A stretch of 64,000 bases of DNA from Atriophallophorus winterbourni (taxonomy: Eukaryota; Platyhelminthes; Trematoda; Plagiorchiida; Microphallidae). A model generated the notes under the pieces. It ran no database searches and was not told where the DNA came from. It was given only the letters and a program-made list of their open reading frames with translations. This document shows positions 13,300-60,150 of the stretch, piece by piece. Both the position numbers and the translations under genes were made by a program. Location: contig JACCGJ010002764.1 in NCBI GenBank assembly GCA_013407085.1, positions 29,088-93,087 on the forward strand, written 5' to 3'. Numbering within the stretch: position 1 is the stretch's first letter; every line of letters begins with the position of its first letter.

Positions 13300-13640
13300 C
13301 CGCTGTGTCAATAGACCTCGGCATTGTTCAATTTTATTAGATTGATGTGGATACACACTATTTGGCAAATCGACAAATGATCCTGGTCATTCCGACGTGA
13401 CAATGCACACTGTAGGTATTAGTATAGGATTTTAGCGGTAAGATCAAATCAGTGGTGGGGGGTTGACTACTACTTAATTGTGTTCCCTGTTCTGATGATC
13501 ACCCTTCGTCAGAGGAAGCCCGTGTGTCAGAAGAGTAACGTTGCCCAAAACCTGTTTTAACCAAGTGTACTCAAATTTATCTGCATTATGAATGCACGAT
13601 CGGACCCAATCTTATTACAATTGATTGTTAACAAACCACA
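13300..13640 (+). repeat. PLE-end repeat, plus orientation, copy A
   Basis: Inverted partner of 12,190-12,600 with the same block order. The hammerhead position at 13,501-13,548 is degraded: CGTCAGAGGAAGC and GTGTGTCAGAAGAG remain, and GAAAC has become GTAAC. Counterpart in copy B: 48,390-48,700. Confidence 0.65.
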
Positions 13641-15109: not shown

Positions 15110-15246
15110 TAGCATTTCGTTCATGCTCATGGGTTTAAAAGACATCTACATGAGTGTGGTCTCAGGAGATTGAGAATGTCGGCCGTACCAACCTTATAAA
15201 TCAATGACATACAGTTTCAAGCATATGAGGATCCTGATCCTACTGT

Positions 15247-15288
15247 CCCCACCTAATGAATGCAAACATCGCCAAACCGACCGTTGGA
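15247..15288 (+). ncRNA. Retrozyme-type hammerhead, degraded
   Basis: Layout CCCCAC, CUAAUGA (G5 changed to A), a weakened stem II (AUGC against GCC), AAACCGACC and GUUGG. The G5 change alone should abolish cleavage. Confidence 0.7.
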
Positions 15289-15477
15289 ATGTGTGTGATG
15301 GAAATGCATACATGTAGCAATTTGTTTCATGGTGATGCGTTAGAAAGTATTATAGACGTCTTTTGTCACAGGTTGAACAGGTTGATCTAACCAGACTTAT
15401 CCAACAGTGGCCGACAAGCGCTACTCGTTTACCCTTCACCCACTGTTCTAATTGCAGGCGGATCATAATCTTACTGT

Positions 15478-15518
15478 CCCTACCATGATGAGTACAAACT
15501 GCACGAAACCGGTCAGGG
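15478..15518 (+). ncRNA. Retrozyme-type hammerhead, degraded
   Basis: Stem II (GUACAAACUGCAC), GAAACCGGUC and the following AGGG are well kept, but the core reads CAUGAUGA with an extra A after C3, so activity is unlikely. Confidence 0.72.
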
Positions 15519-15619
15519 TGTGTGTGATGGGAATGAATGCATATGAACATCTTTATTGTTTCATAGCATTTTTAACATTTTCTTTACTCTGTTAATTCGG
15601 AAGACAACATAATTTCCAG

Positions 15620-15796
15620 GATTATGCTGATCAGTTTGCTCAAGACTTCTTTTATTCTTGAATGAACAATAAATTTCGCAAACATATTGAAAAATTCCGT
15701 GACCGATCGGGTAAACATATTGATGTTATGAATCGGCTAGAGCAGTTTGTTGATAACGTCCTACTTGAGACGCATAAGATTCATCTGTTCAAGGAT
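15620..15796 (+). pseudogene. Decayed spliced exon of an unidentified gene, copy A
   Basis: The segment is bounded by an acceptor-like AATTTCCAG and a strong donor GTGAGT, and is 177 bp, exactly 59 codons. The frame reads DYADQFAQDFFYS, one TGA stop, then MNNKFRKHIEKFRDRSGK and HIDVMNRLEQFVDNVL, ending ETHKIHLFKD. Charged, regular composition and an intact frame apart from one stop suggest a former host exon rather than chance. Copy B (50,885-51,063) keeps much of the peptide but has frame changes and a lost donor GT. The protein family was not recognised. No neighbouring exon was identified. Confidence 0.5.
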
Positions 15797-16119
15797 GTGA
15801 GTTCGAACAGGATGCAGGTTTTAATTGAATTTAGCTGACCATTCCTAAGCTGGCTAACATTTGCACAGGACATGGTGATTTAGGTAGAGATGGTTAAAAT
15901 AGATCTGCGAGATTTTGATCAATACCAACACCTTTTACATTATCTGGAACACTTTAATATTTTTAGTTGTTTGCAGGTGCGATTGAAATTCGCTGACCAA
16001 CTATAATGTTTGCGTAATTAGTGTGCAGACACGGAATTTTGTGTTGTGCACAAAATGTTCATAATCTACCTTTCTATCTTGACAAAATCATCACCCGACA
16101 TATCATTTGCTATTCTTAG

Positions 16120-16335
16120 CCAGCTTAGGATTGGTGAAGTGAATGCGATTTAAGCGAGAACAGGTTGGTAGTGCCCAGCCTATCCAACGGTGGCTCAACT
16201 CAACTTGTTTACAATTGTGAAATTGATTTAGGAATTGCCAATCCTGATCTAACCACCGTAGCTGTTGTGTACAAACTGCATGAAACGCGTCATGAGATAT
16301 TTGATGAAAATCAAGCATATATGAATATTTTTACA
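16120..16335 (+). repeat. Hammerhead monomer remnant, copy A
   Basis: The monomer blocks GAACAGGTTGGT, CCTATCCAACGGTGGC, CTTGTTTAC and AATCCTGATCTAACC are present, followed by a ruined ribozyme (GTACAAACTGCATGAAACGCG). In copy B (51,400-51,800) it lies behind a PLE-end fragment with a degraded hammerhead at 51,447-51,495; in A that piece has been deleted. Confidence 0.6.
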
Positions 16336-16649
16336 CATTCAAACGAGTAAGTGTACCTTCTGTCTTTAATTCTTTCACTAGAAAAGAAAAATGAATGAAT
16401 GTATATAATTTGTTCACACAGCAAACTGGCTAATTGAACGGTACGCTTTCAAAATTGCTGAAATAAATTGTGAAAACAATTTATCTCGAACGCTTCGAAA
16501 CGTTCACGGTTACATTGAAAATGTATATCTTGTTTCCTAGTGTTACAATCAACGTACAGCGTATGATAATGTGTTACATTCATGCGATAACGTCATTGCA
16601 TTTTGGAATTCATGTCGATTCTCAGCGTCACTGTGAAAATCGGTCAACA

Positions 16650-17060
16650 ATAAACGGAACATCACTTCTCGTATCTTGGTGAAAATATTGCGGATGACCC
16701 CTAGCTAGGCATCAAGGTTGATCAGTTGATTGAAGGAGTAGTTGACATCTTGTCCAGTTTGAACTTTCTTAGCTGATGCAAACGCAAAGTGACTGTGAAC
16801 ACAAAAGTGATGGTGTACACCGCGTGCGTACTAAATGCTTCAGTGAACAGCAACGAACACTGAATCTCCCATGCAAGACACGCACGAAGATGAATGCATT
16901 TCATCAAATGAAACTTTGCAGTATGTTCGAGAGATCGTGTATGGACAGTGATAAATGCAGAAGTGCTTACTGATGCTTGTCTACAAAGCATTATCACCCT
17001 ATTAGGACACGCCGCTTGCGTTAGCCGAGTTATTTATACAACAAAATGTTGTACTGTATT
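16650..17060 (+). pseudogene. LINE-X reverse transcriptase C-terminal region (plus), copy A
   Basis: On the plus strand the blocks are FSYLGENIADD, IKVDQLI..V..LSSLN, VNTKVMVYTACVLN, a broken ..ERRLNAFHM-like region, and VINAEVL..A.LQSI.TLL. This is the well-known LINE ending in which F.YLGS.I..D..L..EI..RI, K..VY.ACVLS.LLYGSETW, and V.N.EVL.RA follow in order. Many stops and shifts are present. Copy B keeps only the first 150 bp (52,110-52,262). Confidence 0.62.
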
Positions 17061-19269: not shown

Positions 19270-19760
19270 TGCATCCACGTTTCCTCAACTTGACGCTGTA
19301 CACAATGCCTTCATAGTGAGCGGTCAAGAACAAATTCTTCCTAATTCGTACAATCGATGCCTTAGGTTATCATATTTTTTTGCAATAGTCTTTGTACCGC
19401 TAGTGCGATCTACCCAATTGTCGATTTCCTGATTTCAACTCACCATGGAGTTGATCTTCCGGAATTGGACAATTTTCCATCCTGTGCACATGAAACAGTA
19501 TGCTTTAATGGCACTGTCATTGCTGGGTGAACATGCACTGTATAGCAGCTTTTGAGAACATTTTAGCGTTTATTACATTGTCCATCAACGGTATGTTTAG
19601 GATACTACGGATGCTTCGTAAATAAAACGTTTTCAGCATATGTTCATGTCTTTCGTGGATGGTCCGGGTCTCACTGACGTAAAGTAAATCACTTATTACA
19701 CACGCGCTGTAAACCGCTATCTTTGTCTTCATAGTAAATCTGGGGTTTGCCCAGTTTCAG
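19270..19760 (-). pseudogene. LINE-X 3' coding end (minus), copy A
   Basis: On minus: KTKIAVYSACVISDLLYVSE then RHEHMLKTFYLRSIRSILNI, PLMDNVINAK, AAIQCMFT, then frame-shifted HVHRMENCPIPEDQ..GELKSGNRQLGR. This is the LINE ending K..VY.ACVLS.LLYGSETW, ERRLN.FHLR..R.ILNI.W.D.V.N.EVL.RA, RLRWLGHV.RM..GRIPKDLL.GEL. It is broken. Related copies are at 22,200-22,820, 53,300-53,800, 55,440-55,890 and 60,560-62,090. Confidence 0.75.
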
Positions 19761-19769
19761 GCGTAAATA

Positions 19770-20606
19770 AAGCTTTTCATCAGACCGCTCTTTGTTGACA
19801 AACACGTCCTCAAAACGGACATGAAAGCTCTCGGAATTGATCATTCGGGTTAGGAAGAAATTGTTTTTATCCGCTCCAGTCAGGTACTGTGTTAAGCTTT
19901 ATCTGCACATTGTAGAAGAACTGATGCTGTTGAACGTAGATCGTACAGTCACCATACAACTGCCGTCCAACGGACGACTAGTATCTATCGGTTTCTGAGC
20001 TATCGGGGATATTTCTTCAGAATTGAACTGTTATGGATCATTAAACTGTGAAAAACTTTTGAGAAAAATCGATGCTCGATAGAAGGAGAAAAATCACAAT
20101 AAATAAACATTAATTTATGACAATAAGCTCACCAGTTTGGATTTCTTTTATATGAAAAAAAAATTCGTTAGAAATCAAGCATGCTCAGTAATTATTCATC
20201 AAAATATTTTATTAAATGTAATGACTTTCCATTGGTAACATGGATTGCTTCCTAACATGTTATTTGAAAATTTAACAACTGTAGAACATTTCGGAAAAAA
20301 ACATCCGGTTTTCTGCAATATAAAACGTCAGCTTAAACAGTAGAATAAGAGATCTTCATTATCGTGTAAATATGTTTCTAAGTATTGGGTTAGAGCAGTT
20401 CTGAATAAACGTTTTCACTCTGATGCACAAGCGGGTTAGAGATGCTGATCGATCTTGTATTTGTCTAAACGACATGAAATCGCTCGTACTTAAATACACG
20501 ACCGGTGAGTTTTTGGATGTGCGAAGTGAAAGAGCAATTCGTGATTATCACGAGCTTTCGAACATCACATTCTGGCATGAAACAAGGGCAGGAATCGCCG
20601 AGAATT
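19770..20606. other. Duplicated sequence including the empty site of the hammerhead insertion
   Basis: Matches 53,800-55,240 and 55,890-56,760. Around 20,340 it carries the AGTAGAATAAGAGATCTTC sequence that corresponds to the uninterrupted target of the insertion at 54,380. The frame 20,423-20,641 has no intact counterpart in B. Confidence 0.6.
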
Positions 20607-21131
20607 TTAATGACGACATTCGCGAAATCGTAATATTTTAATGCTGGTTAAACGTGCACTGCGTGATAAGGGCTTGAAGTGTAACGTTTGGCACAAAATC
20701 CACCGGCAAATCTGATCGAAGTGACAACGGGGACAGACACATTTGAGGTTCAGTTTTGTGGGTGCTGAATTGTCCATAAAATAGAGGTGTGTTTTCTCAT
20801 ATGCCTTGTCCTCAATAAACGCCTTTGACCAATCGGGTATTCTCCTGTGTTGTTGCATTCTTTGGTGAACCTGATTAGCGTTGAATAGGTTGACTGCCTT
20901 AAGGAATCGAAACACAATGGATGAGCGCGCGTGTAACGCGGGGCTAATGTGGTTATTAGAGGACCGATGACCCGAATGTTGCGATAATTGACAAGATGTT
21001 GTCCAGCTGTGATTTTCAGTTGTTTCAGCGTTTTCAAGTTGGAACAAGACAGAGGAATCAGTTAACAATGACGCATGCATGAGTGCGAACAGCACGAAAT
21101 CGGTCCTAGGGTGTGATGAAGATGCATGCAA
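20607..21131 (-). other. 174-codon open frame, unassigned
   Basis: The longest open frame in the window without transposon motifs. Its first 25 residues are read through the reverse of a hammerhead remnant (21,074-21,110). The middle (VHQRMQQH, KAFIEDK, NSAPTKLNLK) has a degraded match in copy B (56,820-57,000). I see no signal peptide, membrane segment or known motif. The partial overlap with a non-coding repeat and the decay in B argue for a chance frame, but its length is unusual for this AT-rich sequence. Confidence 0.2.
21074..21110 (+). ncRNA. Retrozyme-type hammerhead, 5' half lost, copy A
   Basis: GAGUGCGAACAGCAC and GAAAUCGGUC are preserved, but the CUGAUGA core reads CAUGCAUGA and the upstream stem I arm is gone. 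The equivalent at 59,437-59,475 in copy B is worse. The monomer tail GATGCATGCAAATGAGCAT follows in both. Confidence 0.7.
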
Positions 21132-21799
21132 ATGAGCATTAATGAATTAGATTCTCAACCTACACAGATAACTCAAATCGTTTTTAACAAAAATGCAAGT
21201 GGAAAAATTGTTCGGGCGTCTTACTTTTTATAAAAACGAGTACGTCTAGAGTGAAAAAAATGCATATTAAAAATGAGAAATTGATAGATACATATATATA
21301 CGCATACAACTAAACAGGATCAAAAAGTATTCAGAATTTCATGATGAAATAAACACATAGCATAACAACTACCATAGTATTGTGAATATAAGTTTATTGG
21401 AAACAAATAACATAAAATCATGTAGAGTCATTTATTTACATCCAGAAATAGAACTCACCTTGGCAAAACGCGTATTCTGCGAATGAATGACAAACAAGTG
21501 ATTATTCGTTTGTTAAGAATAAGTTGACTCAAGCGTCTACAAAACACACTCCGACCATTGCCGGATAATATATTTGAAAGAAGTTTTAATTATAATAACT
21601 ATCCTGTTTTTTCGCGTAAACGACCATATCTTAAATGAAAAAATCTCAATCAGCAGGTTAATGTATCAGGTTATGAAGCTGAGTGACGCAAAGTAACTGT
21701 GGTTAAATTTGCTCGGATAATTGATCAAAAGGTACTATCAAAATCCACAGAATACAGACGATCGTTTCCATGACGGTCCATCACACACACGCACACACA

Positions 21800-29312: not shown

Positions 29313-30252
29313 CTTACTTACTTGATTTAATCCCTTGAGTTCCTGGAGGAACATAGAGCCTCGGCAACTTGTCTCCACTTTGGTCTGTCCATAGCAGCCA
29401 GTTTGATCTCGTTCCAGTTAAGTCCACACTTGCGGATCTCCTCTTCACACGAGCGCTTCCAAGATAGCCTTGGGCGTCCGACCCGTCTCTTTCCGATTGG
29501 GTTCCATACCAGAGCATGACGCGTGATGTCATCATTAGGTTTCCGCAAAGTATGCCCAACCCATCTCCACTTTCTTCTACTGATCTGCTGGGCGATCGGG
29601 TCCTCAGCAGCAATCTGCCACAGGTCTTGATTCCTTATCTTTTCTGGCCATTTTACCCCAATAATTCGACGAAGGCAATTATTGTGGAATGATTGCAAGC
29701 GGCCAGAAGACTTTGCTGGCACTCGCCAGGTTTCCGATCCATAGAGTAGCACGGATTTGACGTTGCTTCTGAATATACGGAGTTTCGTGCGTTTTGATAG
29801 AACCTTCGACTCCCAAATGGGTTTCAAAGCTATGAACGCGTATCTTGCTTTGCCGATTCTGGCGACTATGTCTTCGTCCGTGCCACCACTTATTGAAACA
29901 ATGCTGCCGAGGTAGACGAATTGCGTGACGTCTTTGACTGCTTTACCATTGATGGTGATTGATGGGTGCTCATCAGTTAGCACACGGAGGACTTCTGTTT
30001 TTTCGGTATTCACGCGTAGTCCTGCATATGAAGCAAAGTGTGCTAGTCTATCGGTCTTTCTCTGAAGACGTTGGGGGTCACGTGATATCAAGCAGACATC
30101 ATCAGCGTATTCCAGATCCTCCAAATGCTCGGATTCCTTCCAATCGATACCATTCCTCTCACCTTTTACTGTCTGTTTCATTATCCAGTCTATTACCAAC
30201 AGAAAAATCATTGGGGACAACAGGCATCCCTGGCGAACGCCAGGATGCCAAT
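29308..30252 (-). mobile_element. RTE-like (SR2/SR3-type) LINE, 5'-truncated, inserted in CR1-2
   Basis: About 945 bp in antisense to its host. Its right edge begins inside the RT at GVRQGCLLSP and its left edge is the 3' tail, rc TCAAGTAAGTAAG, a short AAGT repeat typical of RTE tails. The host endonuclease reading is interrupted exactly here. The tail ending in TAAG merges with the CTTACTTA of the target, so a target duplication cannot be delimited by eye. Confidence 0.85.
29327..30251 (-). CDS. Reverse transcriptase C-terminal half of the RTE-like LINE (truncated)
   Basis: One uninterrupted frame of about 300 codons; there is no true start because the 5' end is cut. Order: GVRQGCLLSPMIFLLVIDWI; HLEDLEYADDVCLIS with intact catalytic YADD; LRVNTEKTEVLRV; VKDVTQFVYLGSIVS; GTDEDIVARIGKARYAF; RIFRSNVKSVLLYGSETWR; CLRRIIGVKWPEK; then RRKWRWVGHTLRKP and NPIGKRRVGRPRLSWKR. 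These are the palm, thumb and basic C-terminus of RTE-like elements related to schistosome SR2/SR3. It has no stop or frameshift, unlike every other LINE here, so this is the youngest LINE in the window. Without the N-terminal RT part and endonuclease it cannot be autonomous. Confidence 0.85.
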
Positions 30253-32850
30253 TGTTTATAATGGGTGATTTTAAACTTACGCACTTCTACACCAAACGTG
30301 TGCATACTCAGCAATCCCTTGAGTACAAATTCCGTGAAATTATCACTTTCACTCCCCTATACAACTATGTCCATTCAATTACTCGACAAAGGGGCCTCAA
30401 TGAATCATAAATTCTAGATCTGGTTTTTACCTCCGAAGCAACAGCAGTGGAGTCATTGCAGTATCATAGCCCTTGGGGGCTATATGACCATCTAGTGTTG
30501 TCATTCGAATTCGTGTGCAACGCGAGAATGGCGTCGGGCGACGTTAAGTTCATCAGGAGAGTCGATTACTTCGGCCTTCGCGGTGCCATTACGATTATGG
30601 AGGAAAAACATCTCGATCTTACGAATGCAGATACTCATTGTTCTAGTCTGTTAAGTTATATCGACGACAATCCTACTTGTGTTCCCAGAAGGAAATCAAG
30701 TATATTTTGTTTCAAACTACGAAGCCGCACTCGGAAGTGGATAGCCATGCAAAATTCCGGATGGGCTGCACACAAAACAATACGAATAGACGCATCTTGG
30801 GAACAATTTCTTAGTTTTCGTAAACAGGTGACGTCCCTAATTCGAGAAGACAAGCAACAACACCATAAAAAGCTGATCAACCAGATCGAACGACATTTCA
30901 AGTTGCTGTACACCATCGTAAAGACCGCCACGAAGGTAAAGCCATGTGTATTTCCTATCCATACAAAGAACAAACTGACTGATAATGTCAAGGATTCAGC
31001 TGATGACTAATATCATTTTATGCGCAAGTATTTTGTCCAAAGGACGTGTCAACGCTGACATCTTTGCCGCACCCACAACACGTCGATTGCCTTAGCAACA
31101 TCGAGTTAAATACTACGGTTGTGCGAAAGCAATTACGCGGACTGAACGTTTGCAAATCACCAAAAGAGGATGGAATAATACCCGCTGTTCTGAAGTCATG
31201 CGAGCTGGAGGTTTGTGGCCCACTAAGTGGTCTATTCATGCAATCATTGAATACGGGAACCGTACCAACTCAATGAATAACCGGTGTTATCACACCAATC
31301 TACAGAGGGGCAGTCGTTCTGATCCGGCGAATTACCGCCCCGTGACGCTTCTTTAAGCGGTTTCTAGAATTTTGGAACGCCTGGTGTGTGAACGACTTGT
31401 TGAACATCTCGAGAACCATCAGCTAATAACTTTCACACAACACGGATTTAGGAAAACATATTCATGCCTGTCTAACTTGCTCACGACTCTAAGTGACTTG
31501 ACGCAAGCGCTAGACCAAGGAGGTTCCGTTCATGCCGGTTACTGAGATATATCTAAAGCATTTGACAGAGTGAATCAATCCTTACTGCTTCAAAAGCTGC
31601 GGAATGTTGGCGTCATCGGAAACCTACTAACATGTTTCACAAGTTACCTGTCTGGACGCAAAGTAAAAGTCAGAATAGATGGTGAAACTTCTCGAACAAT
31701 TGAAGCTACGAGCGGAGTACATCAGCGTTCGGTTATCGGTCCGATACCGTTTCTCATTTTCATAAACAATCTACCGAACTTACTAGCATGTAAGCTTGTT
31801 TTATTCGCAGATGATGTAAACATCTGGACGGAGGTCAACTCAATCGAGGACTCTCAAGTTCTACAAGGAGATTTAAATAAGCTGAACCAGCGGTCAATCC
31901 AAAACAAACTGCCATTTAATTTCCGCAGGTGCAAAATGTTGCAAGTCGGAAAACCCTTTCTCTTTACCTACAAACTTGGCAGCCACCCGTTTGAATGGAG
32001 TACATCACACAAAGATCTTGGAATCTTGGTGTCTGGCACTTTGAAGAACAGCCTTCAGTGCGAAGCCGTCTACAAGTGTGCGTGCAGCTTGCCAGGTTTA
32101 CTGAAACGCATTTTCGGACGTTTCCTACCACACTCACTCGCGAATTTACTGAACACTTACATACATCCTGTCGTTGACTACGCTGTACAAGCTTGAACGT
32201 CATGAATGGCAAAGAACATCTCGCTCCTCGAACGAATTTATCACAACGCAACCAAAATGGTTACCAGATTGAATAATTTACACTTTGAGCAGCAACTTAC
32301 CAGACTTGGACTGTGCACCCTCCAGCGCAGGCGTATCCTACACGACCTCACTCTGACATATCGAATCATCTACGCGAAATCCCACCCTCTCAAACGCCTC
32401 TTCAAGTTTGGTTCGGTTGTCCCCACACGCAGACAACCTTTGACTCTTTAAATCTTACACTCACGATTGAATTGTCGTCGTCACTTCTTCGCTGTTCGTG
32501 TATGCTTCTTGTGGAATAGCTTGCCGACACATATTCTAACCTCAGCGAACGAGCACATCTTTAAACAGAGGGTAGGATACATTATGTTGAGAACTACTTC
32601 GTTGGCCTCTACCTATTGATGTCTATATTTTTCAACGCACGGAACTACCGTCCAGTCAAAGATTCTTTCCCTCCAGTCTGTGTTGCCGATGAGGATTATT
32701 TTTGATCCACCTATAAATAACACGGATAAGATCATACAAGAAACGATTTTTTTTAATTTTTTATACGTATATCCTATGGTACTGTACAGCAATTTGCTTT
32801 TTCAACCATAAATCCTGATTCCTAAATATCCAGTGCTATCCACTATTTTG
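30252..32850 (+). pseudogene. CR1-clade LINE, end of endonuclease, RT and 3' end (CR1-2, right part)
   Basis: The plus frames resume with IMGDFKLTH, EYKFREIITFTPLYNYV, LDLVFTSEATAVE and GLYDHLVLSFEFVC (end of the endonuclease, with GDF and D-H motifs), then RRVDYFGLRG. Next come KVKPCVFPI, VCKSPKEDGIIPAVLKSCE, NYRPVTLL, a broken FD region (ISKAFDRVNQSLL, 31,550-31,585), GVHQRSVIGP, LVLFADDVNIWTEV (31,795-31,835), RRCKMLQVGKP, KDLGILVSGTL, YIHPVVDYAVQA and ATKMVTRL..L..E..L.RLGL..L..RR. The end is near HIFKQRVGY (32,555) and ACCATAAATCCTGATTCCT octamer-like repeats (32,808-32,840). There are several stops and shifts. Confidence 0.85.
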
Positions 32851-32859
32851 TTCTGTTGC

Positions 32860-33700
32860 GGGAAAGAAAACGAATTTCATGTACGCACCTTTACTGAACG
32901 ATTTGCCAGTTCTCGTCTATCTTCAGGGCTTATGTTGTCCGTCTGAAGATGCGGAATCTGTATAAGAGATTAACTCAGGGCCAATTTATCTACCCGTCGA
33001 ACCACCCCATTCGGTGCAAGCGATTGCTGAGTACTGCAAACATAGTCGAACACAAGCACTGAATGGTCACTAAGACCCAGCGGGGCCTGGAATTTGATCG
33101 CCTCGATAGAATTTTCTTCCCATGTTAACACCAAATCCAAGACAGATCGGCGGTCAGAAACTATACTCCGGGTGCATTCGTCAACATGGTTGTATAACGG
33201 GACTGAATCTAGTTTTTCTCTAAATCGGTATTCTAGCGTTTGTGGCGAGTGATTGTCCCTGAGATAAAGGGTGGACAGATTGAAATCACTCATAAGAAGT
33301 GTCGTTGCTTGCTGTGTGCGGGTCAAGCGCTAGAGAACTTGGATCAACCTCTGGTTGTACGAGTCCGTGAATGAAGGGGACCGGTAGAATACACACCAAT
33401 CATGCAAACTCCACCAGACATTAGCGTTAAAGAACACAAAATTGTTTCCTCGAGCGTGAATTCTGTGTTGTTTTTTGGGTGGCACTGGAGTCAATTATGA
33501 TAATAAACGGCACAACCACCACCAATTCCATCTCGATCGTTCCTTATCAAATTCATATTTTGGAATTGTTATCTCCGTTTCAATCAATTAGGAAGAATAC
33601 CATGTTTCTGTAAAGGCGATAATGTCAGGTGAACATATCTAGCTTAACGTCAGCTAATTTGTTTGGAAGGCTTTGTGCATTTGTATAAAAAAACATTTTA
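32860..33700 (-). pseudogene. CR1-clade LINE endonuclease domain (CR1-3)
   Basis: On minus from about 33,695: YTNAQSLPNKLADVKLDMF, then FTETW after a shift; further on LLMSDFNLSTLY (the GDFN motif with G to S), LEYRFREKLDSVPLYNHVDE, SVLDLVLTWEENSIE, LGLSDHSVLVFDYVC (the SDH motif intact), RRVDKLALS. This is the apurinic-like endonuclease of a CR1 ORF2. The RT that should follow is absent before 32,860, where the 3' end of the opposite-strand CR1-2 lies. At least two frame breaks. Confidence 0.82.
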
Positions 33701-43099: not shown

Positions 43100-44865
43100 C
43101 ATGATTTGATGGGGTGTAATTAAATATTATGTTTCCCGTTTGTTTGTAATAGTAAAATGTAGCAGTTTTTCTCTAGTGGAAATAAATTCTCGTAACATAC
43201 TTTCCTCCAAGAGCGGTACCACTAATAATAAAATGAAAAGAACAAAATAATATGCATATATAAATTAAGAATTTCCATTCAAAGAATAAACTCCTTTTCT
43301 TTTATGTTATTCATTTGCATTTAACATGTGATTTTGTTTTATTTCAAACATCAATGGATGATCCATCCACATTGTCACGTTGATGTCACATAAATATCAC
43401 AGTTGCTCAGAAGTAAACCGGTTTTGATGTGTGTATGTTCCGGATATCAAGATTACATTGCATCATATCTTTAGCAGTAAAGGACAAGATTCACGTTGGT
43501 CTTCGCAAGCGGTTTCTAATTGGTCCTTATGTTGCCGCTAATGGGAAATGCTGGTTAATTTAGTTTGTTGTTGAGTGTCACGCTTCCAGGAATTCGTGCG
43601 TCATTTCATTAGCAAAATATTTTCCTGCGGTCCCAGTTAGACGTGTGACGGAATTGTTCAATATGTATTGACATCATTGAATTTGGATCATGTCGGCCTA
43701 TTGTTAACTTGTCTTGGTGTAGTTATTTGCTTGCTACCTACTTGTTTGACGCATTACTTCTCTCAAATTCACATGTAAACTTGAAATTTGCATTCAACTG
43801 TTTTACTTTCGACTGTCTCTCGTATCATTCTAGAAATACATTCGTCGTCCTTGCTAATATTTAAAGATTAAACGCTCTATTTTCCTCATATTTATGCACA
43901 CCACTGCTCTATACTACACTTTAGCGAGGAAAATTTCAACGATCATTTATATGCAGTTCCATCACACTTCATAACAAAAGTTCTCTGCAGTTTTCACTCA
44001 TAAAGTAGGGACAGTAAGATCAGGATTCGCATGCCTTGAAACAGTGGAACTATGGTAAACTAGATTGATGCTTGTATGCCGCTGTTCGAAAAGGTTAATA
44101 CGACCACATCACAAGCGATCGCACAAATGTATACGGAGTTTAACCAATGATCATGAGCAAAGATTATCATTAGCCTGCATGACCATTATCTAAAATCATC
44201 TTTCAAATGGCCATAGAATGTATGCGAAAAAATTGATTTGATTAACATTTGATTTCATAAACCGAATATTTGATCGAACATGATGAGCGAGTATGTAACC
44301 ATGGTGTCAACAGGATGTTGACTTGTGATTGAACACACTGCGTTTTGCCATTCTGGATAACTCAGCACTATCTTCAAAGTTTAGAGTTTAGGCTAAGATC
44401 GCCAAATCTTCGCTGGATCAAAACAATCATTTTTGACTGTACAATCGTTTTCTAACGACTGCATACAGCACCATTTTGTTCGTGATGCGTACGTGATGTA
44501 TTTACGTACAATTAATAAAACGTTTATCCAGATTATATGTATCATCACACTTAACTATCCATTTGATATCGTGCTAGAAAATATAGTTTTCTACGAGAGA
44601 CAACGTGAGTTTGTATATCAAAATATATGACCTACCCCTAACAATCTCCTCCAACGCTAGAATAATAAAATGCGAGTCGTTAGGAAATCATGTGTTACTG
44701 AAACCACTAAATGTTTTTGAATATTTTACATAAGTCAATCGACGAGATATAAGAATAACCAAAATGTGATTATGAAGTAATAAGCGTATATGATTCGAGC
44801 TAACTTTAAAATATTCGTGAGAAGCAATTTTCAGGTAGGTATACACTTGGACCTGATACATAATC
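43100..44865. other. Non-coding duplicated sequence, copy B
   Basis: Counterpart of 7,961-9,819. No gene. Confidence 0.55.
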
Positions 44866-48389: not shown

Positions 48390-48700
48390 CAGTGTTCAAT
48401 TTTATTGAATTGATGTAGTAGGCAAATCGACAAATGATCCTGGTCATTCCGACGTGACAATGACACTGTAGGTATTAGTATAGGATTTTAGCGGTAAGAT
48501 CAAATCAGTGGTGGGGGGTTGACTATTACTTAATCATGTTCCCTGTCCTGATGATCACCCTTCGTCAGAGGAAGCACGTGTGTCAGAAGAGGAACGTTGC
48601 CCAAAACCTGTTTTAACCGAGTGCACTCAAATTTCTTTGCATTATGAATGCATGATCGGGCCCAATCTTATTGCAGTTGATCGTTAACAAACCACACTAT
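48390..48700 (+). repeat. PLE-end repeat, plus orientation, copy B
   Basis: Counterpart of 13,300-13,640; degraded hammerhead at 48,557-48,603 (CGTCAGAGGAAGC, CAGAAGAGGAACGTTGCCC). Confidence 0.62.
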
Positions 48701-50024
48701 TACCTTATGCTTGCAAATTTATCCACAACGAAACCGTTTTCAATCTGCATACGCCACGTGTCTGTTTTATCTTATTTATAGACAAATTTCGTGCCCACTG
48801 CATTAATTTTAGTTATCACCAAGTTGGTTTCGTTTGAACGATCTTGACAAACACATTATCATTCAAACATCATGTCAAACACTTTATCATTCTGAAATCA
48901 TGTCATTATTCGTCATAATCGTGAAAACGTTTTTGATTCTTGCGATGTGGCGATTGTTGCTCGCTGTTCACGTCCTCCGAAAGGGTGATGTTCTACAATA
49001 TGGTAATATGTCTCGTGGTTGGCACACTTCGTAATCGCACTTAACCCTTCTGTGATGTCACCGAAATCGTTTCATGCGAAAGGAACGGGTGATAACTGCC
49101 GAGTCACAATGGTGCATCTCAACCATAGTTGTACATCACAAGCGCATGATGGTTTCATGCTCCGCAGCTTTTAGAAACAGCAAACAATCGCTGACTCTTT
49201 GAAACGGAAGATTAGTCTGCAAATATATATTACCTGTTATTACGCCACGAATGAAAGTTCACTCAATAGTATATTGCCGTGAAGCTGATTATTGTCATAG
49301 AAACTCACCGGGTCTTTTAACACCGGAAGCTACAATAAAGGATGTAAATGAGATAACAATTTTACAAATACAAAAATAACAAAACCATGCGAGAGTCTTC
49401 AAAATTTAAATATACAATAATAAATTATAGTGTTGGTTAACGAATGCCAAAAATATAGAATGAGAAATTGCGTTTGTGAAGTTATTTTCTTATTCGATTT
49501 GTTTCGAAATCCATTATTTGATTCATGTCACGGATACGGATACGTAGAACTAGTATAAGGGTCGCAGTATTATTTTTAAACGTAATTGAACTACATTTAA
49601 TAATTAGCATTTTTACCGAGATTGAAGGCGGACGAATGCCAATATGGTAATGATTCTCGAAATGTTTCGTTTGCGATTAAGACAAATTAATCCAGTTGAC
49701 CGTGTATTGTTCATATTTCAATACACGTTGCGTTTACCGTACACAACACTTCGACTTATGTGCTTTGAGCTACGGCAATTTATGTGATTTTACGGAATGC
49801 GACCTTTCTAACAACTTACTCCGAGCTATTTATTTCACCACATGTTTGAAGGTGAGTGCCGTCCACATCTTTTATTTCCTTTTTGTTACTACTAATAAGT
49901 AGGTAAGGCCTTCGAAATATTCACAAAGTTTATCACTACAGTCAACATTGGAAGCACTTTATTCATGTTTTGCTTTCATTTTAACTCATCAAAAGTGAAT
50001 ACACTCTGTCTTGGGTCAGTTTCG
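48701..50024. other. Non-coding duplicated sequence, copy B
   Basis: Counterpart of 13,641-14,925. No gene. Confidence 0.5.
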
Positions 50025-50425
50025 ATTTGCACACCCTTACCATTGTAGTTTCACGAATTACGGCCAGAGCCAGCGTCCACTGTTTGGCGGATGGCGATTA
50101 AGGATTTATCAATCTTTATTGTGACTGACAAATTTGATTAGTATTATATGCTCTATCATTCGAAAAAGAGCAAGCGAAATCTGATGTGGTTGTGTGACCT
50201 AATTGCTGCGATATTTATTATATTCATGTTATCACATCGTAGAATATGTCCGAGATAATTTTAATGTAATTAGATAATAATTGAAGGTAACAATGTAATC
50301 AGAATAAAAGACAGAAAGATTTATCTACGTAATTTTTTTCTTCACTTGCGTGTAGGATTCAAGTTTATCTTCAGGTGTCGCAGTGTTGTTAATAGCATAG
50401 TCACATGGAAAACGGTAAGCTTTAC
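50025..50425. other. Copy-B-specific segment
   Basis: About 400 bp with no counterpart in A, where the flanks meet near 14,930. AT-rich, no frame or element end recognised; insertion in B or deletion in A cannot be decided. Confidence 0.6.
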
Positions 50426-50479
50426 CATAGAGCCTGTGCCTGCCAAACACGTTCTGAAGACCGTGTATCCTGATGTTTG

Positions 50480-50850
50480 GTTGATGTTGATATATAAAAT
50501 ATACACGCTCACAAGAATAATTCATTATTTTATTGATGAGGGTCATGATGCTACTATCCCTACTTAATGAGTGCAAACAACACAAAACCGGGCTTTGGGA
50601 TGTGCGATGGAAATACATGTAAATGAGCATTTTTTTATGGTTATGGGACGTACCGCATGATAAATGTGTTTGGACACATATGATTGAGCAGGTTGGTCGT
50701 ATCAGCCTTATCTTTTAAGCGCATGCGTATCCTGAACCAACTGTCCGTACCTAATGAGTACAAACTGCACGAAATTGGTCATCATATGTGATGGGAATGC
50801 ATGCATATGAACGTATCTATTCTTTCGAGACACATTCAACATTTTCTGTA
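50480..50850 (+). repeat. Decayed tandem hammerhead monomers, copy B
   Basis: Two ribozyme positions about 187 bp apart. The monomer between them has lost the GTGGCATACAAGCG to CCCACTGTTT part. Core at 50,558-50,599 reads UUAAUGA and AAAAC; core at 50,745-50,785 reads CUAAUGA, GUACAAACUGCAC, GAAAUUGGUC, differing from active only by G5 to A and weak stem I. The counterpart of 15,110-15,560. Confidence 0.78.
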
Positions 50851-50884
50851 CTCTGTTTGTTCAAAAAGGTAACTTAATTTCCAG

Positions 50885-51063
50885 GTTTAAGCTGATTGGT
50901 TTGCTCAAAACTTTCAAATTCGCGAATTAACAACGAGAAATTTCGCAACATGCTTGAAAACTATCTTTACCGATCGGGGAAACAAATTGATGTAATGAAG
51001 CGGTTAGAGCCGTTTTTTGTTAACGTCCTACTTTCGACGCATAAGCTTCATCTGTCCAAGGAT
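50885..51063 (+). pseudogene. Decayed spliced exon of an unidentified gene, copy B
   Basis: Counterpart of 15,620-15,796. Acceptor TTAATTTCCAG is kept; the donor GTGAGT has become ATGAGT. From NNEKFRNMLENYLYRSGKQI, then DVMKRLEP, VNVLLSTHKLHLSKD the peptide is clearly the same as in A, but the length is 179 bp and the first part is in another frame. The lost donor means it could no longer be spliced normally. Confidence 0.48.
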
Positions 51064-51399
51064 ATGAGTAAGAACAAGATGCATGTTTTAATTGGATTCA
51101 GCTGACCATTTCTAAGCTGGTTAAGATCTGTACAGGACATGGTGATTTAGGTAGAAATGGTTAAGATCGATATGCGAGATTTTGTTTATTACTTACACTA
51201 TTTACAATATCTTTAACACTTTTATATTTTATTTATTTTCAGGTGTGATTGAAATACGCTGACCAACTATACTGTGTGCGTCATTCGTGTGCAGACATGG
51301 AATTTTGTTTTGCGCACAACTTGTTCATACTCCAACCTTTCTATCTGGACAAAATCACCACCCGCCATGGCATGTGTTATTCTTTGCCAGATTAGGATT

Positions 51400-51800
51400 T
51401 GGCAAGTGAATGCGATTTAAACCTGAACTTTGTTCGTACTTTCACACTTAGTCTGATGAAACCTCTGTCTAAGGAGCAGAATGGTGCCCACATAGTGTTT
51501 TGGTCTGTAGCGCAAATAGCATGAAAACGGACGTCAGGTATGTTCGATTGAAATTCATGAGAATGGGACATTTTTAATCAAGCCGACGTGTATAAACCGA
51601 TGTACGTTTGTGTGCACATGTGATTGAACAGGTTGGTCGTGCTCAGACTATCCGAAAGTGGATTGCAACTGGTTTAAAACTGTGAAATTGCTTAATGTAT
51701 TCACAGTCGTGATGTTATCTCACTAACTGTTGAGTACCAACATCATGGAACACCTCATGAGATATTTAATTAAAATTATGCTTTGATGAATAATTTACGC
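51400..51800 (+). repeat. PLE-end fragment fused to a hammerhead monomer fragment, copy B
   Basis: First part: GGATTTGGCAAGTGAATG, ACCTGAACTTTGTTCGTAC, AGTCTGATGAA (PLE-end repeat with degraded hammerhead 51,447-51,495). Second part: GTGATTGAACAGGTTGGTCG and later CAACATCATGGAACACC, a ruined monomer. Copy A keeps only the second part. Confidence 0.58.
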
Positions 51801-52109
51801 ATGCAAACAAGTAGCTGTACCTTCGTCCAATAATGCATCCACTAGAAAAGAAGAAAATGAATTAACGTATATAATTTCTTTACACCGCAAACTGAGGAAT
51901 TAAACGGTACGCGTTCAATATTGCTGAAATTATTTGGGAAAACATATTATCTGAAACGCTTCGAAACGTTTGCGGTAATATGAAAATGTTTATCTTTGTT
52001 TCCGTGTGTTACAATCAACGTATAACTTTTCATATTGTGTTAAATTTCATGCGATAACGTCATTGCATTTTGGCATTCATGTCGATTCTTAGCGTCAATG
52101 CGAAAATCA

Positions 52110-52262
52110 GTCAGCATTGAATAAACATCACTTCTCGTATCTTTGTGCAAATATTGCGGATGAACGCTAACTAGGTATCAAGATTGATCAGTGAATTGGC
52201 AGAGCAGTTGGCATCTTGTCTCGTTTGAACTTTCTTGGCTGGGGCAAACGCAATTTGACTGT
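52110..52262 (+). pseudogene. LINE-X reverse transcriptase fragment (plus), copy B
   Basis: HHFSYLCANIADE, LGIKIDQ, IGRAVGILSRLNFLGWGKRN and LTVH. It matches 16,650-16,800 in A and clarifies that the ancestral text was the LINE block YLG..I..D..L...ID..IGRA...LSRLN.R.W. It is then joined by deletion to the tail of the LINE at 17,680-18,340. Confidence 0.65.
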
Positions 52263-53299: not shown

Positions 53300-53800
53300 C
53301 TGCATCAACTTTTCTTCCCTTACCGATCTACGCGATGTCTTTATAGTGAGCAGTTAACAGCAAGTACTTCCCAACTCGTAGAATGGATGCCGCGATCTTT
53401 CATATCTCTTTTGCAAAAGTCATTGTAACGCAAATGCGGTCTACCCAATAGTCGACTTCTCGATTTCAACTCAGATGTTTGTATCCTGTACACATTAACT
53501 ACTATGCATAAGTGGCACCGTCGTATTAGGGTGAAAATGTTGCGTAAACCTGCTCTTTAAAACTAATCAGCGTTTGTTACATTATCCATCAATGGTATGT
53601 TCAAGAAACGACGGATGCTTCTTAAATAGAACGTTTTCAGCATCCGCTCGTATATTGTGTGCATGGTCCAGGTCTCACTGCCGTACAGTAAATAACTTAG
53701 TAATCACACGCTGCAAACCGCTATCTCTGTCTTCATATTCAATTTGAGGTTGGTCAAGTTTCAGGCGAAAAGTTGACAATTCGACAGATCGCTCTTGCGT
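53300..53800 (-). pseudogene. LINE-X 3' coding end (minus), copy B first
   Basis: On minus the ending GSRSRLLGRPHLRYNDFCKR then DMKDRGIHSTSWEVLA is clear (53,455-53,340), preceded by decayed RSIRRFLNIPLMDN and SETWTMHTIYERML. These are the LINE-X blocks G.P.LRYKD.CKRD.K..GI....WE at the C-terminus. Confidence 0.72.
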
Positions 53801-54369
53801 GAAAAAATACGTTTTTAAGAGCGACATGTAAGCTCTCGGAATTGATCATTCTATTTGGAAAGAACTTGCTTTTGTCCGCAACATTCAGGTACAGTGCTAA
53901 GCGTCATCTGCGAATATGGGAAGAACAGATGCTGTTGAACTTAGATCGCACAGTCAGTAGGCAACTGCTGTCGACCGGAAGACTATTGCCTATCGGTTTG
54001 AGTGTTGCCGTGGATATTCCTTCCGAATCGAATTGTTTTACCACTCGAACTCTATGAAGCATGAAACTCTGAGAAACGTGTAAGAAAAATCGATGCTTGT
54101 TTGAAGGAGAAAAATAACAATAAATAACCATAAATGTATGACAATGAGCTTACCGGTTTGGATTTCTTTTATATGAAGAAAAACAAATCCATTAGAAATC
54201 GTGCATGCTTAGGAATTATTCATCAGCATATTTTTATTCAATTTAATGACTTTCCATTAGATACAATGGATTGCTTTGTAAAATGTTATCACAAAATGTA
54301 ACACTTGGTGAACATTTCGGAATAAACAACTGGTTTTATGTCTGCAATATTAAACGTCGACTTAAAAAG

Positions 54370-54379
54370 TAAATAAGTG
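54370..54379 (+). repeat. Target-site duplication, left
   Basis: TAAATAAGTG, identical to 54,942-54,951 and present once at the empty site 56,464-56,473. Confidence 0.88.
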
Positions 54380-54395
54380 ATCCTCATCTTACTGT

Positions 54396-54437
54396 CCCTA
54401 CCTGATGAGTGCAAACAGCACGAAACCGGTCGTGGGG
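54396..54437 (+). ncRNA. Hammerhead ribozyme, retrozyme type, complete (1 of 3)
   Basis: CCCUAC (54,396-401) pairs with GUGGGG (54,432-437) as stem I. The core is CUGAUGA (54,402-408), stem II GUGC-AAACA-GCAC (409-421), GAA (422-424), ACCGGU (425-430) as a self-complementary stem III without a loop, and C at 431, with cleavage expected between 431 and 432. Every conserved core base is present. A three-pair loopless stem III cannot close within one molecule, so two ribozymes probably pair, which tandem copies make easy. Confidence 0.93.
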
Positions 54438-54628
54438 TGTGAATGACGGAAAAGCATGCAAATGAATATTTTGTTTCATGGTTATGGGTTTAACACCATT
54501 TAACATGTGTTTCGACACATGCTTTGAACAGGTTCGTCGTACGAGCCTTATCCAACAGTGGCATACAAGCGCTCCTTGTTTACCATTCCCCCACTGTTTC
54601 AAGCGCATGCGGATCCTGATCTTACTGT

Positions 54629-54670
54629 CCCTACCTGATGAGTGCAAACAGCACGAAACCGGTCGTGGGG
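54629..54670 (+). ncRNA. Hammerhead ribozyme, retrozyme type, complete (2 of 3)
   Basis: Identical in core and stems to the first; expected cleavage after C at 54,664, 233 nt downstream of the first site. Confidence 0.93.
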
Positions 54671-54861
54671 TGTGAATGACGGAAACGCATGCAAATGAAT
54701 ATTTTGTTTCATGGTTATGGGTTTAACCCCATTTAACATGTGTTTCGACACATGCTTTGAACAGGTTCGTCGTACGAGCCTTATCCAACAGTGGCATACA
54801 AGCGCTCCTTGTTTACCATTCCTCCACTGTTTCAAGCGCATGCGGATCCTCATTTTACTGT

Positions 54862-54903
54862 CCCCACCTGATGAGTGCAAACAGCACGAAACCGGTCGTG
54901 GGG
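54862..54903 (+). ncRNA. Hammerhead ribozyme, retrozyme type, complete (3 of 3)
   Basis: Same core; stem I is CCCCAC with GUGGGG, so the U-G wobble of the others is a C-G pair here. Expected cleavage after C at 54,897, again 233 nt on. The C/U difference is compatible with pairing. Confidence 0.93.
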
Positions 54904-54941
54904 TGTGAATGACGGAAAAGCATTCAAATGAATATTTTGTT

Positions 54942-54951
54942 TAAATAAGTG
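54942..54951 (+). repeat. Target-site duplication, right
   Basis: TAAATAAGTG followed by GTCATTTTT, as at the empty site. The first T may belong to the element, so the duplication is 9 or 10 bp. Confidence 0.88.
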
Positions 54952-55437
54952 GTCATTTTTATTTGATATTTGGTTTGAAAGTAGTGGGATAGAGAAGTTG
55001 TAGGAAAATGTTTTCAGTCTGGTGCATATGCGGGTTAAAAATGCTGATTGATCTTTATTCTGCTCAAACGACAAGAAATAATTAAATAGACGACCAGTGT
55101 TATTGCAGAGGTCCGAAGTGAATTAGCAATGAGTGCTGATCAAGAGCTTTCGAACATCGCCTTCTGGCATACCACAAGGCAAGGAATCGCAAAGAATTGA
55201 GATGACGACATTTGCAAAATCGTAATATTTCAATGCCAGTAAAACGAGCACTACTTGTCGAAAGCTTGCAGTGTCACGCTTGGCATGAAATCGACGGGCA
55301 AATCAGATCAAAGTGACAACATTTGAGGTTGGGTGTTGTGGGTGCTGATTTGTCTTTGAAGTATAGTTGTGTGTTTTGTTATTTGTATTGTGCGTAATAA
55401 ATGCCTTTAGACAGTCGGATTCTCTCTTGTGTTGTTG

Positions 55438-56962
55438 CAAGTACTTTCCAACTCGTAGAATGGATGCCGCGATCTTTCATATCTCTTTTGCAATAGTCAT
55501 TGTAACGCAAATGCGGTCTACCCAATAGTCGACTTCCCGATTTCAACTCAGATCTTTCGGAATTCGATCATTTTGTATCCTGTACACATGAACTACTATG
55601 CATAAGTGGCACCGTCGTATTAGGGTGGAAATGTTGCGTAGACCTGTTCTGTAAAACTAATCAGCGTTTGTTACATTATCCATCAATGGTATGTTCAAGA
55701 AACGACGGATGCTTCTTAAATTGAACGTTTTCAGCATCCGCTAGTATATTGTGTGAATGGTCCAGGTCTCACTGCCGTACAGTAAATAACTTAGTAAGCA
55801 CACGCTGCAAACCGCTATCTCTGTCTTCATATTCAATTTAAGGTTGGTCAAGTTTCAGGCGTAAAGTTGACAATTCGACAGATCGCTCTTGCGGGAAAAA
55901 ATTCGTTTTTAAGAGCGACATGTAAGCTCTCGGAATTGATCATTCTATTTGGAAAGAACTTGCTTTTGTCCGCAACATTCAGGTACAGTGCCTAGCGTCA
56001 TCTGCGAATATGGAAAGAACAGATGCTGTTGAACTTAGATCGCACAGTCAGCAGGCAACTGCCGTCGACCGGAAGACTATTGCCTATCGGTTTGAGTGTT
56101 GCCGTGGATATTCCTTCCGAATCGAATTGTTTTACCACTCGAACTCTATGAAGCATGAAACTCTGAGAAACGTGTAAGAAAAATCGATGCTTGTTTGAAG
56201 GAGAAAAATAACAATAAATAACCATAAATGTATGACAATGAGCTTACCGGTTTGGATTTCTTTTATATGAAAAAAAACAAATCCATTAGAAATCGTGCAT
56301 GCTTAGGAATTATTCATCATCATATTTTTATTCAATTTAATGACTTTCCATTAGATACAATGGATTGCTTTGTAACATGTTATCACAAAATGTAACACTT
56401 GGTGAACATTTCGGAATAAACAACTGGTTTCATTTCTGCAATATTAAACGTCGACTTAAAAAGTAAATAAGTGGTCATTTTTAATTTGATATTTGGTTTG
56501 AAAGTAGCGGGATAGAGAAGTTGTAGGAAAATTTTTTCAGTCTGGTGCATAAGCGGGTTAAAAATGCTGATTGATCTTTATTCTGCTCAAACGACAAGAA
56601 ATAATTAAATAGACGACCAGTGTTATTGCAGAGGTCCGAAGTGAATTAGCAATGAGTGCTGATCAAGAGCTTTCGAACATCGCCTTCTGGCATACCACAA
56701 GGCAAGGAATCGCAAAGAATTGAGATGACGACATTTGCAAAATCGTAATATTTCAATGCCAGTAAAACGAGCACTACTTGTCGAAAGCTTGCAGTGTTAC
56801 GGTTTGCATGAAATCGACGGGCAAATCAGATCAAAGTGACAACATTTGAGGTTGGGTGTTGTGGGTGCTGATTTGTCTTTGAAATATAGTTGTGTGTTTT
56901 GTTATTTGTATTGTGCGTAATAAATGCCTTTAGACAGTCGGCTTCTCTCTTGTGTTGTTGCA
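55438..56962 (+). repeat. Local tandem duplication, second unit
   Basis: Second copy of 53,361-55,437. It contains the empty target site TAAATAAGTG at 56,464-56,473. Its right edge agrees with copy A near 20,860, its left edge does not, so the duplication arose in B after the 35-kb duplication. Confidence 0.93.
55440..55890 (-). pseudogene. LINE-X 3' coding end (minus), in second tandem unit
   Basis: Same as 53,300-53,800, with the C-terminal GRPHLRYNDFCKRDMKDRGI block, plus the 18 bp around TCTTTCGGAATTCG that preserve PKDL-like sequence upstream (RIPKDL). Broken by stops. Confidence 0.7.
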
Positions 56963-59436: not shown

Positions 59437-59475
59437 GCATGCATGAGTGCAAACATCAGGAAACAGGTCATATGG
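59437..59475 (+). ncRNA. Retrozyme-type hammerhead, ruined, copy B
   Basis: CAUGCAUGAGUGCAAACAUC, AGGAAACAGGUC; counterpart of 21,074-21,110, with stem II broken. Confidence 0.6.
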
Positions 59476-60150
59476 TGTATGTTGGAGATGCATGCAAATG
59501 AGCATTTGCGAATTATGTTCTCAACATCCACAGATAACGCGAATCCATTTTAACAAAAATACAAGTCCAAAACGTGTTGGTGCGACTTACTATTTATCAA
59601 TAAGAGAACATCTGCAATGAAAAAATGCATATAGAAATATGAATTTGGCTAATATATGCATACAACTAAACAGATTTAAAAAGATTAAAAACTTGTATGG
59701 TGACAGAAATACATAGCTTCACAAGAACCGTAACATAGTAAGTATAAGTGTATGAGAAAGATGACATAAAATCATATAAGTTAATGTATACATATACATA
59801 CAACAATAGAACTCACCCAGACAAAATTCGAAGTCTGAGAATCATTGAAAAACAAGTGTTTATACGTTTGCTAAAAACAAGTTGATTGAAACGTCTCCCA
59901 AAAACACTCCGACGATTGCGGGATATTATATTTGCAATAAGATTTATAATAATAACTAACCTGTTTTCGTCGCGCCGACGACCAAATCTGAAATGACAAA
60001 TTCTTAATCAGCAAAGGAATATATATAACTTCCGACGTCGTTATGAATCTCAGTGACGCAATGAAACTGCGGTAGAATTCGCGCCGATAATTGATTAAAA
60101 GTTACTAACAAAATCCAATTTATATAGACGATGGTTTCCATGGAGTTCCA
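59476..60150. other. Non-coding duplicated sequence, copy B
   Basis: Counterpart of 21,112-21,780. No gene. Confidence 0.5.

Follow-up and report, generated by a model that had tools for sequence, protein, structure and literature searches.

The closest described relatives of the element reported here are the metazoan retrozymes without long terminal repeats (LTRs) (Cervera and de la Pena 2020; PMC7229834). Shared features are type I hammerheads in tandem repeats of ~170 to 400 bp, a GC content below 50%, the lack of coding capacity, target duplications of more than 4 bp when these are present, and arrays of up to tens of copies. In the accessible sections of that paper, the mobilizing enzyme and the template RNA of animal retrozymes are left open, with Penelope-like elements named as a strong candidate; we find there neither junction evidence for this candidacy nor a map of start sites, cut motifs, or empty sites. 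Unlike the elements as described there, the copies analyzed here end preferentially at two internal hairpins; some are arranged head-to-head, some do not reach the length of a single unit, and many of the arrays mix haplotypes.

Schistosoma hammerhead satellites and W-elements are likewise hammerhead tandem repeats in a flatworm, and a target duplication has been suggested for one element (PMC8490949). They differ in that the accessible text of that paper contains no systematic junction analysis that we could find, and the word "empty" is absent from it. Plant LTR retrozymes are also non-autonomous hammerhead elements (PMC4918200), but they have LTRs, type III hammerheads, and 4-bp duplications (summarized in PMC7229834 and PMC7761336).

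The window, by which we mean the whole 64,000-bp stretch of the Atriophallophorus winterbourni contig that was analyzed, contains a tandem array at 54,379 to 54,942 (plus strand, as are all window features whose coordinates follow unless stated) with a period of 233 bp, 2.42 copies, and 97% matches. The sequence CTGATGAGTGCAAACAGCACGAAAC occurs exactly at 54,402, 54,635, and 54,868, with no further exact occurrence on the plus strand of the window, the one strand searched. All three hammerheads of the array (54,396 to 54,437, 54,629 to 54,670, and 54,862 to 54,903) are type I by covariance model, at 34.7, 32.9, and 32.9 bits; one exceeds the Rfam gathering score of 34, and the other two lie 1.1 bits below it. 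Predicted cleavage falls at 54,431/54,432 (a site derived from the hammerhead fold), 54,664/54,665, and 54,897/54,898. The array is bounded by two copies of TAAATAAGTG, at 54,370 to 54,379 and 54,942 to 54,951, which form its target-site duplication. The last G of the left copy is common to the element, and because end bases are shared between the element and TAAATAAGTG, the true duplication is 9 to 10 bp long. Thus, array, covariance scores, and exact TAAATAAGTG copies agree with the sequence-only reading of this DNA, which had described 233-bp monomers with three hammerheads between two target duplications. An expectation that the array ends would coincide with the ribozyme cleavage site does not hold, since the array neither begins nor ends there. 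Counting monomer phase 1 as the first base after predicted cleavage, its 5' end is at phase 181 and its 3' end at phase 44 to 45, that is, 44 to 45 nt downstream of cleavage. The copy closes with TATTTTGTTT (54,933 to 54,942, phases 36 to 45), which comprises the loop and 3' side of the hairpin at what we call start site 1.

The retrozyme has a GC content of 0.46. The only frames of at least 95 amino acids in the array are two on the minus strand (112 and 113 amino acids), neither with a Pfam family at E 0.1, and no LTR-type flank is seen. The 233-bp units hold no reverse transcriptase plus GIY-YIG endonuclease frame of their own, and thus the element is not itself a member of the Penelope-like group. 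It has the properties that characterize metazoan retrozymes: a 233-bp tandem repeat with a hammerhead in each unit, no coding capacity or LTR, and dispersed copies with duplications of more than 4 bp. Judged by its sequence, the window array is a metazoan-type retrozyme, a noncoding and non-autonomous retroelement whose RNA is predicted to carry hammerhead ribozymes, and it inserted recently.

The insertion lies within a tandem unit (53,363 to 55,439) that is followed by a sister unit without it (55,440 to 56,962). In the sister unit, the target TAAATAAGTG is present as a single, uninterrupted copy at 56,464 to 56,473. The two units are 95.8% (left part) and 98.2% (right part) identical, with 34 mismatches in 1,505 aligned bases (2.3% divergence). 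An older copy of the host unit, copy A (19,338 to 20,857), aligns with the empty unit in one alignment of 1,563 columns at 75.8% identity. A genome search with 600 bases of the host unit gave 42 matches, and the seven fetched loci of contig C10720 (L047 to L053) are, like copy A, uninterrupted at the insertion site. Five of these seven align across the site with a 110-base probe, and the other two and copy A align on the left side only; coverage of the site comes from the 600-base matches for all seven loci and from the 1,563-column alignment for copy A. Because copy A and the seven C10720 loci are uninterrupted too, we take the empty site to be ancestral. The filled state is therefore the derived one, and it postdates the local duplication of 53,361 to 56,962, which is the order of events that had been proposed from the sequence. 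A precise deletion in the sister unit was also considered and is very unlikely, since copy A and the seven C10720 loci lack the insertion as well. The further suggestion that such a filled and empty pair is rare needs a correction, in that the pair is not unique: loci L027 and L029 occupy one target sequence at a distance of 40 bp, and in an all-versus-all flank comparison the L029 flank reads through the L027 site and is thus its empty version.

The surroundings of the array contain other duplications. Window blocks 13,500 to 16,800 and 48,556 to 52,262, and likewise 8,701 to 9,250 and 43,750 to 44,298, represent two block copies ~35 kb apart, parts of which are 75 to 91% identical. An old, decayed relative of the retrozyme at 15,211 to 15,564 has its site in common with 50,536 to 50,811, where the second block carries this insertion too. 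Hammerhead remnants of very great age occur at 21,079 to 21,140 and 59,443 to 59,507; their flanks are homologous, and they likewise end close to phase 40. On contig C10720, eight loci match the host unit over most of the query. Together, the window blocks and these loci represent a large tandem-duplicated region.

We find at least 169 matches to the array in the genome (537 Mb in 15,840 contigs), from a search in which 39 of 2,340 first-look candidates were scored, and 35 regions around array matches were taken for junction analysis. A second search with 98 bases gave at least 40 matches (40 scored of 660 candidates), of which 20 were taken for analysis; 6 others fell on contigs that were represented before. 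The shortest arrays measure less than half a unit and the longest at least 36 units. Of 477 units read, 374 have an intact ribozyme core (with a duplicated locus, L058/L059, counted twice). These copy numbers are likely underestimates, because many long arrays reach contig ends (C5901, C9300, C2218, C7305, and others) and the assembly breaks on the retrozyme family. Three arrays (L035, L036, and L043) sit within another satellite with a period of ~82 bp.

Target duplications, on whose presence at other copies the sequence-only reading had staked its claim of mobility, are found well beyond the window. With boundaries set by hand after viewing the flanks, duplications reach at least 7 bp in 11, and at least 8 bp in 9, of the 22 hand-listed insertions for which both ends can be read (lengths 7 to 14 bp); in 460 controls with mispaired left and right flanks, the corresponding shares are 1.1% and 0%. 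The other 11 of the 22 have no duplication of 7 bp or more. With raw boundaries, repeats of at least 10 bp occur in 6 of 14 insertions, L035 and L036 included, versus 3 of 182 mispaired controls. The repeats at L035 (10 bp) and L036 (13 bp) are left out of the hand-set count because both loci sit in a satellite with repeating units. Among the 11 insertions with duplications, a cut motif N/(N)TTT is present on both strands, again with hand-set boundaries. Positions +2 to +4 are T in 44 of 66 cases (24/33 on one strand, 20/33 on the other), compared with 20.6 expected from the flanks (0 of 20,000 simulations). The first one or two bases of the duplication often match the end of the element (T, GT, TG, or TT), as if the tip of the primer had paired with the RNA.

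The 3' ends of the copies, placed by local alignment, concentrate ~40 to 50 nt (site 1) and 143 to 153 nt (site 2) downstream of cleavage. Two 14-nt windows contain 24 of 28 hand-listed 3' ends, a concentration reached in 0 of 20,000 uniform simulations. A few phases (those of L021, L014, and the plus half of L035) were adjusted by eye, as the alignment there had entered the duplication or the flank. Excluded from the 28 are ends at contig or locus edges or at N; L042 and L043, whose 3' flanks are identical to others; and old or short pieces with 3' phases of 41 (L014), 103 (L016), 5 (L023), and, in the window, 222, 48, 39, 34, 35, 149, and 40. Two minus-strand pieces, of L011 (phase 123) and L014 (phase 225), are also excluded; with both, the count is 24 of 30. 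The test was redone on arrays of at least 3.8 units because the first query ended at phase 45, and such arrays can accommodate the full query wherever they end; two 11-nt windows contain 20 of their 23 3' ends (0 of 50,000 simulations). In the second sample, which favors site 1 by design, 12 of 13 readable ends are at phases 39 to 49 and one is at 145, after dropping L059 (identical to L058), the unclear L067, and ends running off the fetched pieces. A start at the 3' end generated by the ribozyme (phase 233) was considered and rejected: none of the 28 ends lies within 9 nt of it, the nearest being L037 at phase 10. Among the excluded pieces, the old L023 fragment (phase 5) and the minus-strand piece of L014 (phase 225) come nearer.

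When the circular monomer is folded at minimum energy, both preferred sites coincide with hairpins. The loop UAUUUUGU (phases 36 to 43) together with the 3' arm of the same hairpin makes up site 1; site 2 consists of the 3' side of the hairpin ACAAG-CGCUC-CUUGU plus the unpaired bases that follow. Within a hairpin at 99-106/110-117, the pair 104/112 is C-G in 227 of 479 units and G-C in 221, and 456 of 479 are able to pair. This swap is consistent with selection for the predicted hairpin, though it may represent one historical double change. The 5' ends show no clustering (n = 16, P ~ 0.5). Among short insertions, 5 of 10 stop at phases 166 to 172 (scan P = 0.00075, a value that is too small because the query that fetched them favored 5' ends before phase 181). 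The half-unit insertions L063, L065, L060, and L058 start at phase 168 to 169, just outside a stable helix. As a lead, these stops would fit an enzyme stalling at the helix 122-130/160-167.

Ten loci (L011, L014, L033, L035, L036, L055, L056, L061, L069, and L071) carry an adjacent inverted piece at the 5' end of the array, each with a score reached in 0 of 200 flank shuffles. A further locus, L072, has a weak, decayed inverted piece (P = 0.14), and the inverted pieces of L037 and L066 (P = 0 and 0.03) are nonadjacent and were not counted. The array in the window has no adjacent inverted piece (best score 7.0). Both outer ends are in view in seven loci. A pairing of site 1 with site 2 is seen in three of them (L035, phases 43 and 150; L036, 42 and 148; and L069, 44 and 149 to 151) and in the decayed L072 (41 and ~148). 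In the remaining three, one end lies off both sites: L033 (site 1 and ~133 to 136), L011 (47 and 123), and L014 (site 2 and 225). The second target strand was therefore often, though not always, extended from a preferred start.

The preference for an internal start, the scatter of 5' ends, the target duplications, the exactness of the empty site, and the use of both strands as primers combine to make us infer target-primed reverse transcription, and we consider it very likely that the retrozyme inserts by target-primed copying with an internal start. In the scheme that we propose, an endonuclease/reverse transcriptase supplied in trans would cut both target strands ~7 to 14 bp apart. The 3' DNA ends would then prime reverse transcription at either hairpin rather than at the end of the RNA, at points ~45 nt (site 1) and ~149 nt (site 2) after the ribozyme cleavage point. 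Copying would proceed 5'-ward for about half a unit to many units, leaving a 5'-truncated array if one strand were extended and a head-to-head pair if both were.

The nature of the template can be approached through four linked monomer sites (82, 104, 112, and 158), which define two haplotypes among 523 array rows (A, 232; B, 227; unclear, 64). A and B are nearly 1:1 across the family, and one pair of these sites is the compensatory C-G to G-C swap in a hairpin. Of 28 arrays or array pieces with at most eight rows, 12 are pure and 16 mixed, where the halves of head-to-head loci are counted apart and some are pieces of longer arrays. Hand-sorting the arrays with both ends in view gives 8 of 15 mixed (L011, L021, L023, the plus half of L033, both halves of L035, L037, and L042) and 7 of 15 pure (the window array, L016, L027, L064, and the minus halves of L033, L036, and L055). 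The mixed arrays include L021, a dispersed array of 3.9 units that reads B A B B and has a clean duplication. The two halves of L035 also each read B A B B; a single RNA copied into both was considered and set aside, as the halves differ by 1.8% and L017 is closer, at 1.0%.

The sequence-only reading had followed the view that retrozymes move through a circular RNA, and a single monomeric circle of 233 nt copied round and round, as proposed for retrozymes, is one alternative for the template. It has several points in its favor. A circular template makes an internal start easy to understand, other animals are documented to have circles (accessible text of PMC7229834), and 7 of the 15 arrays with both ends in view, the window array included, are pure. 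Adjacent monomers are alike in 256 of 389 cases (0.658), more than in within-array shuffles (0.581, P = 0.0005) or overall (0.50). Of the five typed multi-unit loci whose duplication measures 7 bp or more, three are pure as well (the window array, L027, and L064). The 8 mixed arrays weigh against it, among them L021 and one half of L033, which belong to the other two of these five loci: as we read the haplotypes, one monomeric circle cannot yield a mixed array in a single event, so that this alternative needs gene conversion or unequal crossing over to have mixed the arrays later. We regard it as possible but doubtful. A mixed array can come from an uncleaved multi-unit transcript, from a dimeric or larger circle, or from template switching; later gene conversion can also produce one. 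Because many arrays mix two haplotypes, the template would often be an uncleaved RNA of several units, or the enzyme would switch templates, and it is quite probable that at least some insertions used a multimeric or switched template.

Under target-primed copying, a Penelope-like element is the leading candidate source of the enzyme, which by analogy we hold to be fairly probable. The mode of copying resembles that of published Penelope-like enzymes more than L1-type priming, as comparison with two systems suggests. The first is the purified protein of PAc, a Penelope-like element of the green anole (Frangieh et al. 2024; PMC11167929). In PAc, too, reverse transcription begins within the RNA, at two positions close to a stem-loop; each strand of the target is cut and extended; the cut motif is AT-rich with a preference for 5'-ATT-3'; and a hammerhead lies upstream of the start sites, with uncleaved RNA usable as template. 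PAc differs in being autonomous, with start sites in its open frame, whereas the retrozyme has no recognized protein; its tail is 30 to 40 nt long, whereas the retrozyme start sites are ~105 nt apart; and its enzyme started at non-homologous sites, whereas retrozyme duplications often match the 3' end by one or two bases (accessible text of PMC11167929). The second is the Penelope-like elements of Adineta vaga, with 8- to 10-bp duplications, head-to-head pLTRs or inverted terminal repeats, 5'-truncated copies and partial tandems, an empty site that served as proof, and trans-mobilization of unrelated sequence (PMC3846280). These elements differ in being protein-coding, and the word "hammerhead" is absent from the accessible text of that paper.

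Within the sequences analyzed here, a motif scan of 326 kb found no intact Penelope-like element, and its only hit of this kind is a decayed endonuclease-like frame in L037 (987 to 1,304, minus strand), ~230 bp from a retrozyme array. By its motif, this fragment resembles a Penelope-type endonuclease. It has no significant Pfam family and no meaningful match among solved structures, and two unnamed proteins are 54 to 55% identical to it. No Penelope-type frame was recognized among the nine frames searched in the window. The degenerate retroelement frames that were recognized there are RVT_1 (29,327 to 30,220 and 31,570 to 32,196) and Exo_endo_phos_2 (32,973 to 33,329), which in our reading derive from LINEs. 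The Penelope-type partner is thus a presumed one.

These window frames speak for a different partner, in which a conventional LINE of RTE- or CR1-like kind, equipped with an endonuclease of APE type, performs the target-primed copying, with head-to-head copies arising by twin priming in the style of L1. Truncation at the 5' end, variable duplications, and microhomology are LINE traits too and count in its favor. L1 uses targets in the order TTTT/A, and SINEs mobilized by L1 carry an A-rich or microsatellite tail. The retrozyme has neither. Its cut motif N/(N)TTT differs from the L1 order and is present on both strands, and its 3' ends share no common A-tail or microsatellite tail, L056 alone being followed by an ATT repeat. 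Moreover, the second strand starts at a preferred site in L035, L036, L069, and the decayed L072, whereas twin priming would start at arbitrary internal places. We therefore consider a LINE partner unlikely.

Spread of a satellite by DNA-level events alone, such as extrachromosomal circles and unequal crossing over with no RNA step, would account for arrays of 36 units and more, which are hard to make in one copying run, and for this reason DNA-level expansion probably also occurs. As an explanation of the insertions themselves it is very improbable in view of the preferred 3' ends, the 7- to 14-bp duplications, the target motif, the 5'-truncated copies shorter than one monomer, and the exact empty site. 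An assembly artefact at the window locus is scarcely credible, as the array is internal to a 93-kb contig, the two copies of its duplication match exactly, and junctions of this type are seen again on unrelated contigs.

Taken as a whole, the best explanation combines retrozyme insertion, an enzyme acting in trans, priming at two hairpins, and a Penelope-like element as the candidate enzyme, and we think it likely, with some room for doubt. A broader proposal is that animal retrozymes may be parasites of Penelope-like elements. Their hairpins would mimic the start hairpins of the enzyme, and its two active units would copy uncleaved multi-unit RNA at two fixed points, one for each cut strand, so that the ribozyme would not make the inserted copy. 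We offer this proposal tentatively, at somewhat below even confidence.

The window element belongs to a known family, and the copying mode that its junctions reveal was not found described for retrozymes in the literature searched. A comparable junction map for retrozymes was found neither in the accessible text of PMC7229834, PMC7761336, PMC8490949, PMC3846280, and PMC11167929 nor in titles and abstract openings, a search that covered few subscription papers. Retrozyme junctions make the questions of enzyme and template testable from DNA sequence by itself. The enzyme is indicated by start sites, cut motif, and head-to-head structure, whereas the template is barcoded by the two linked haplotypes within arrays.
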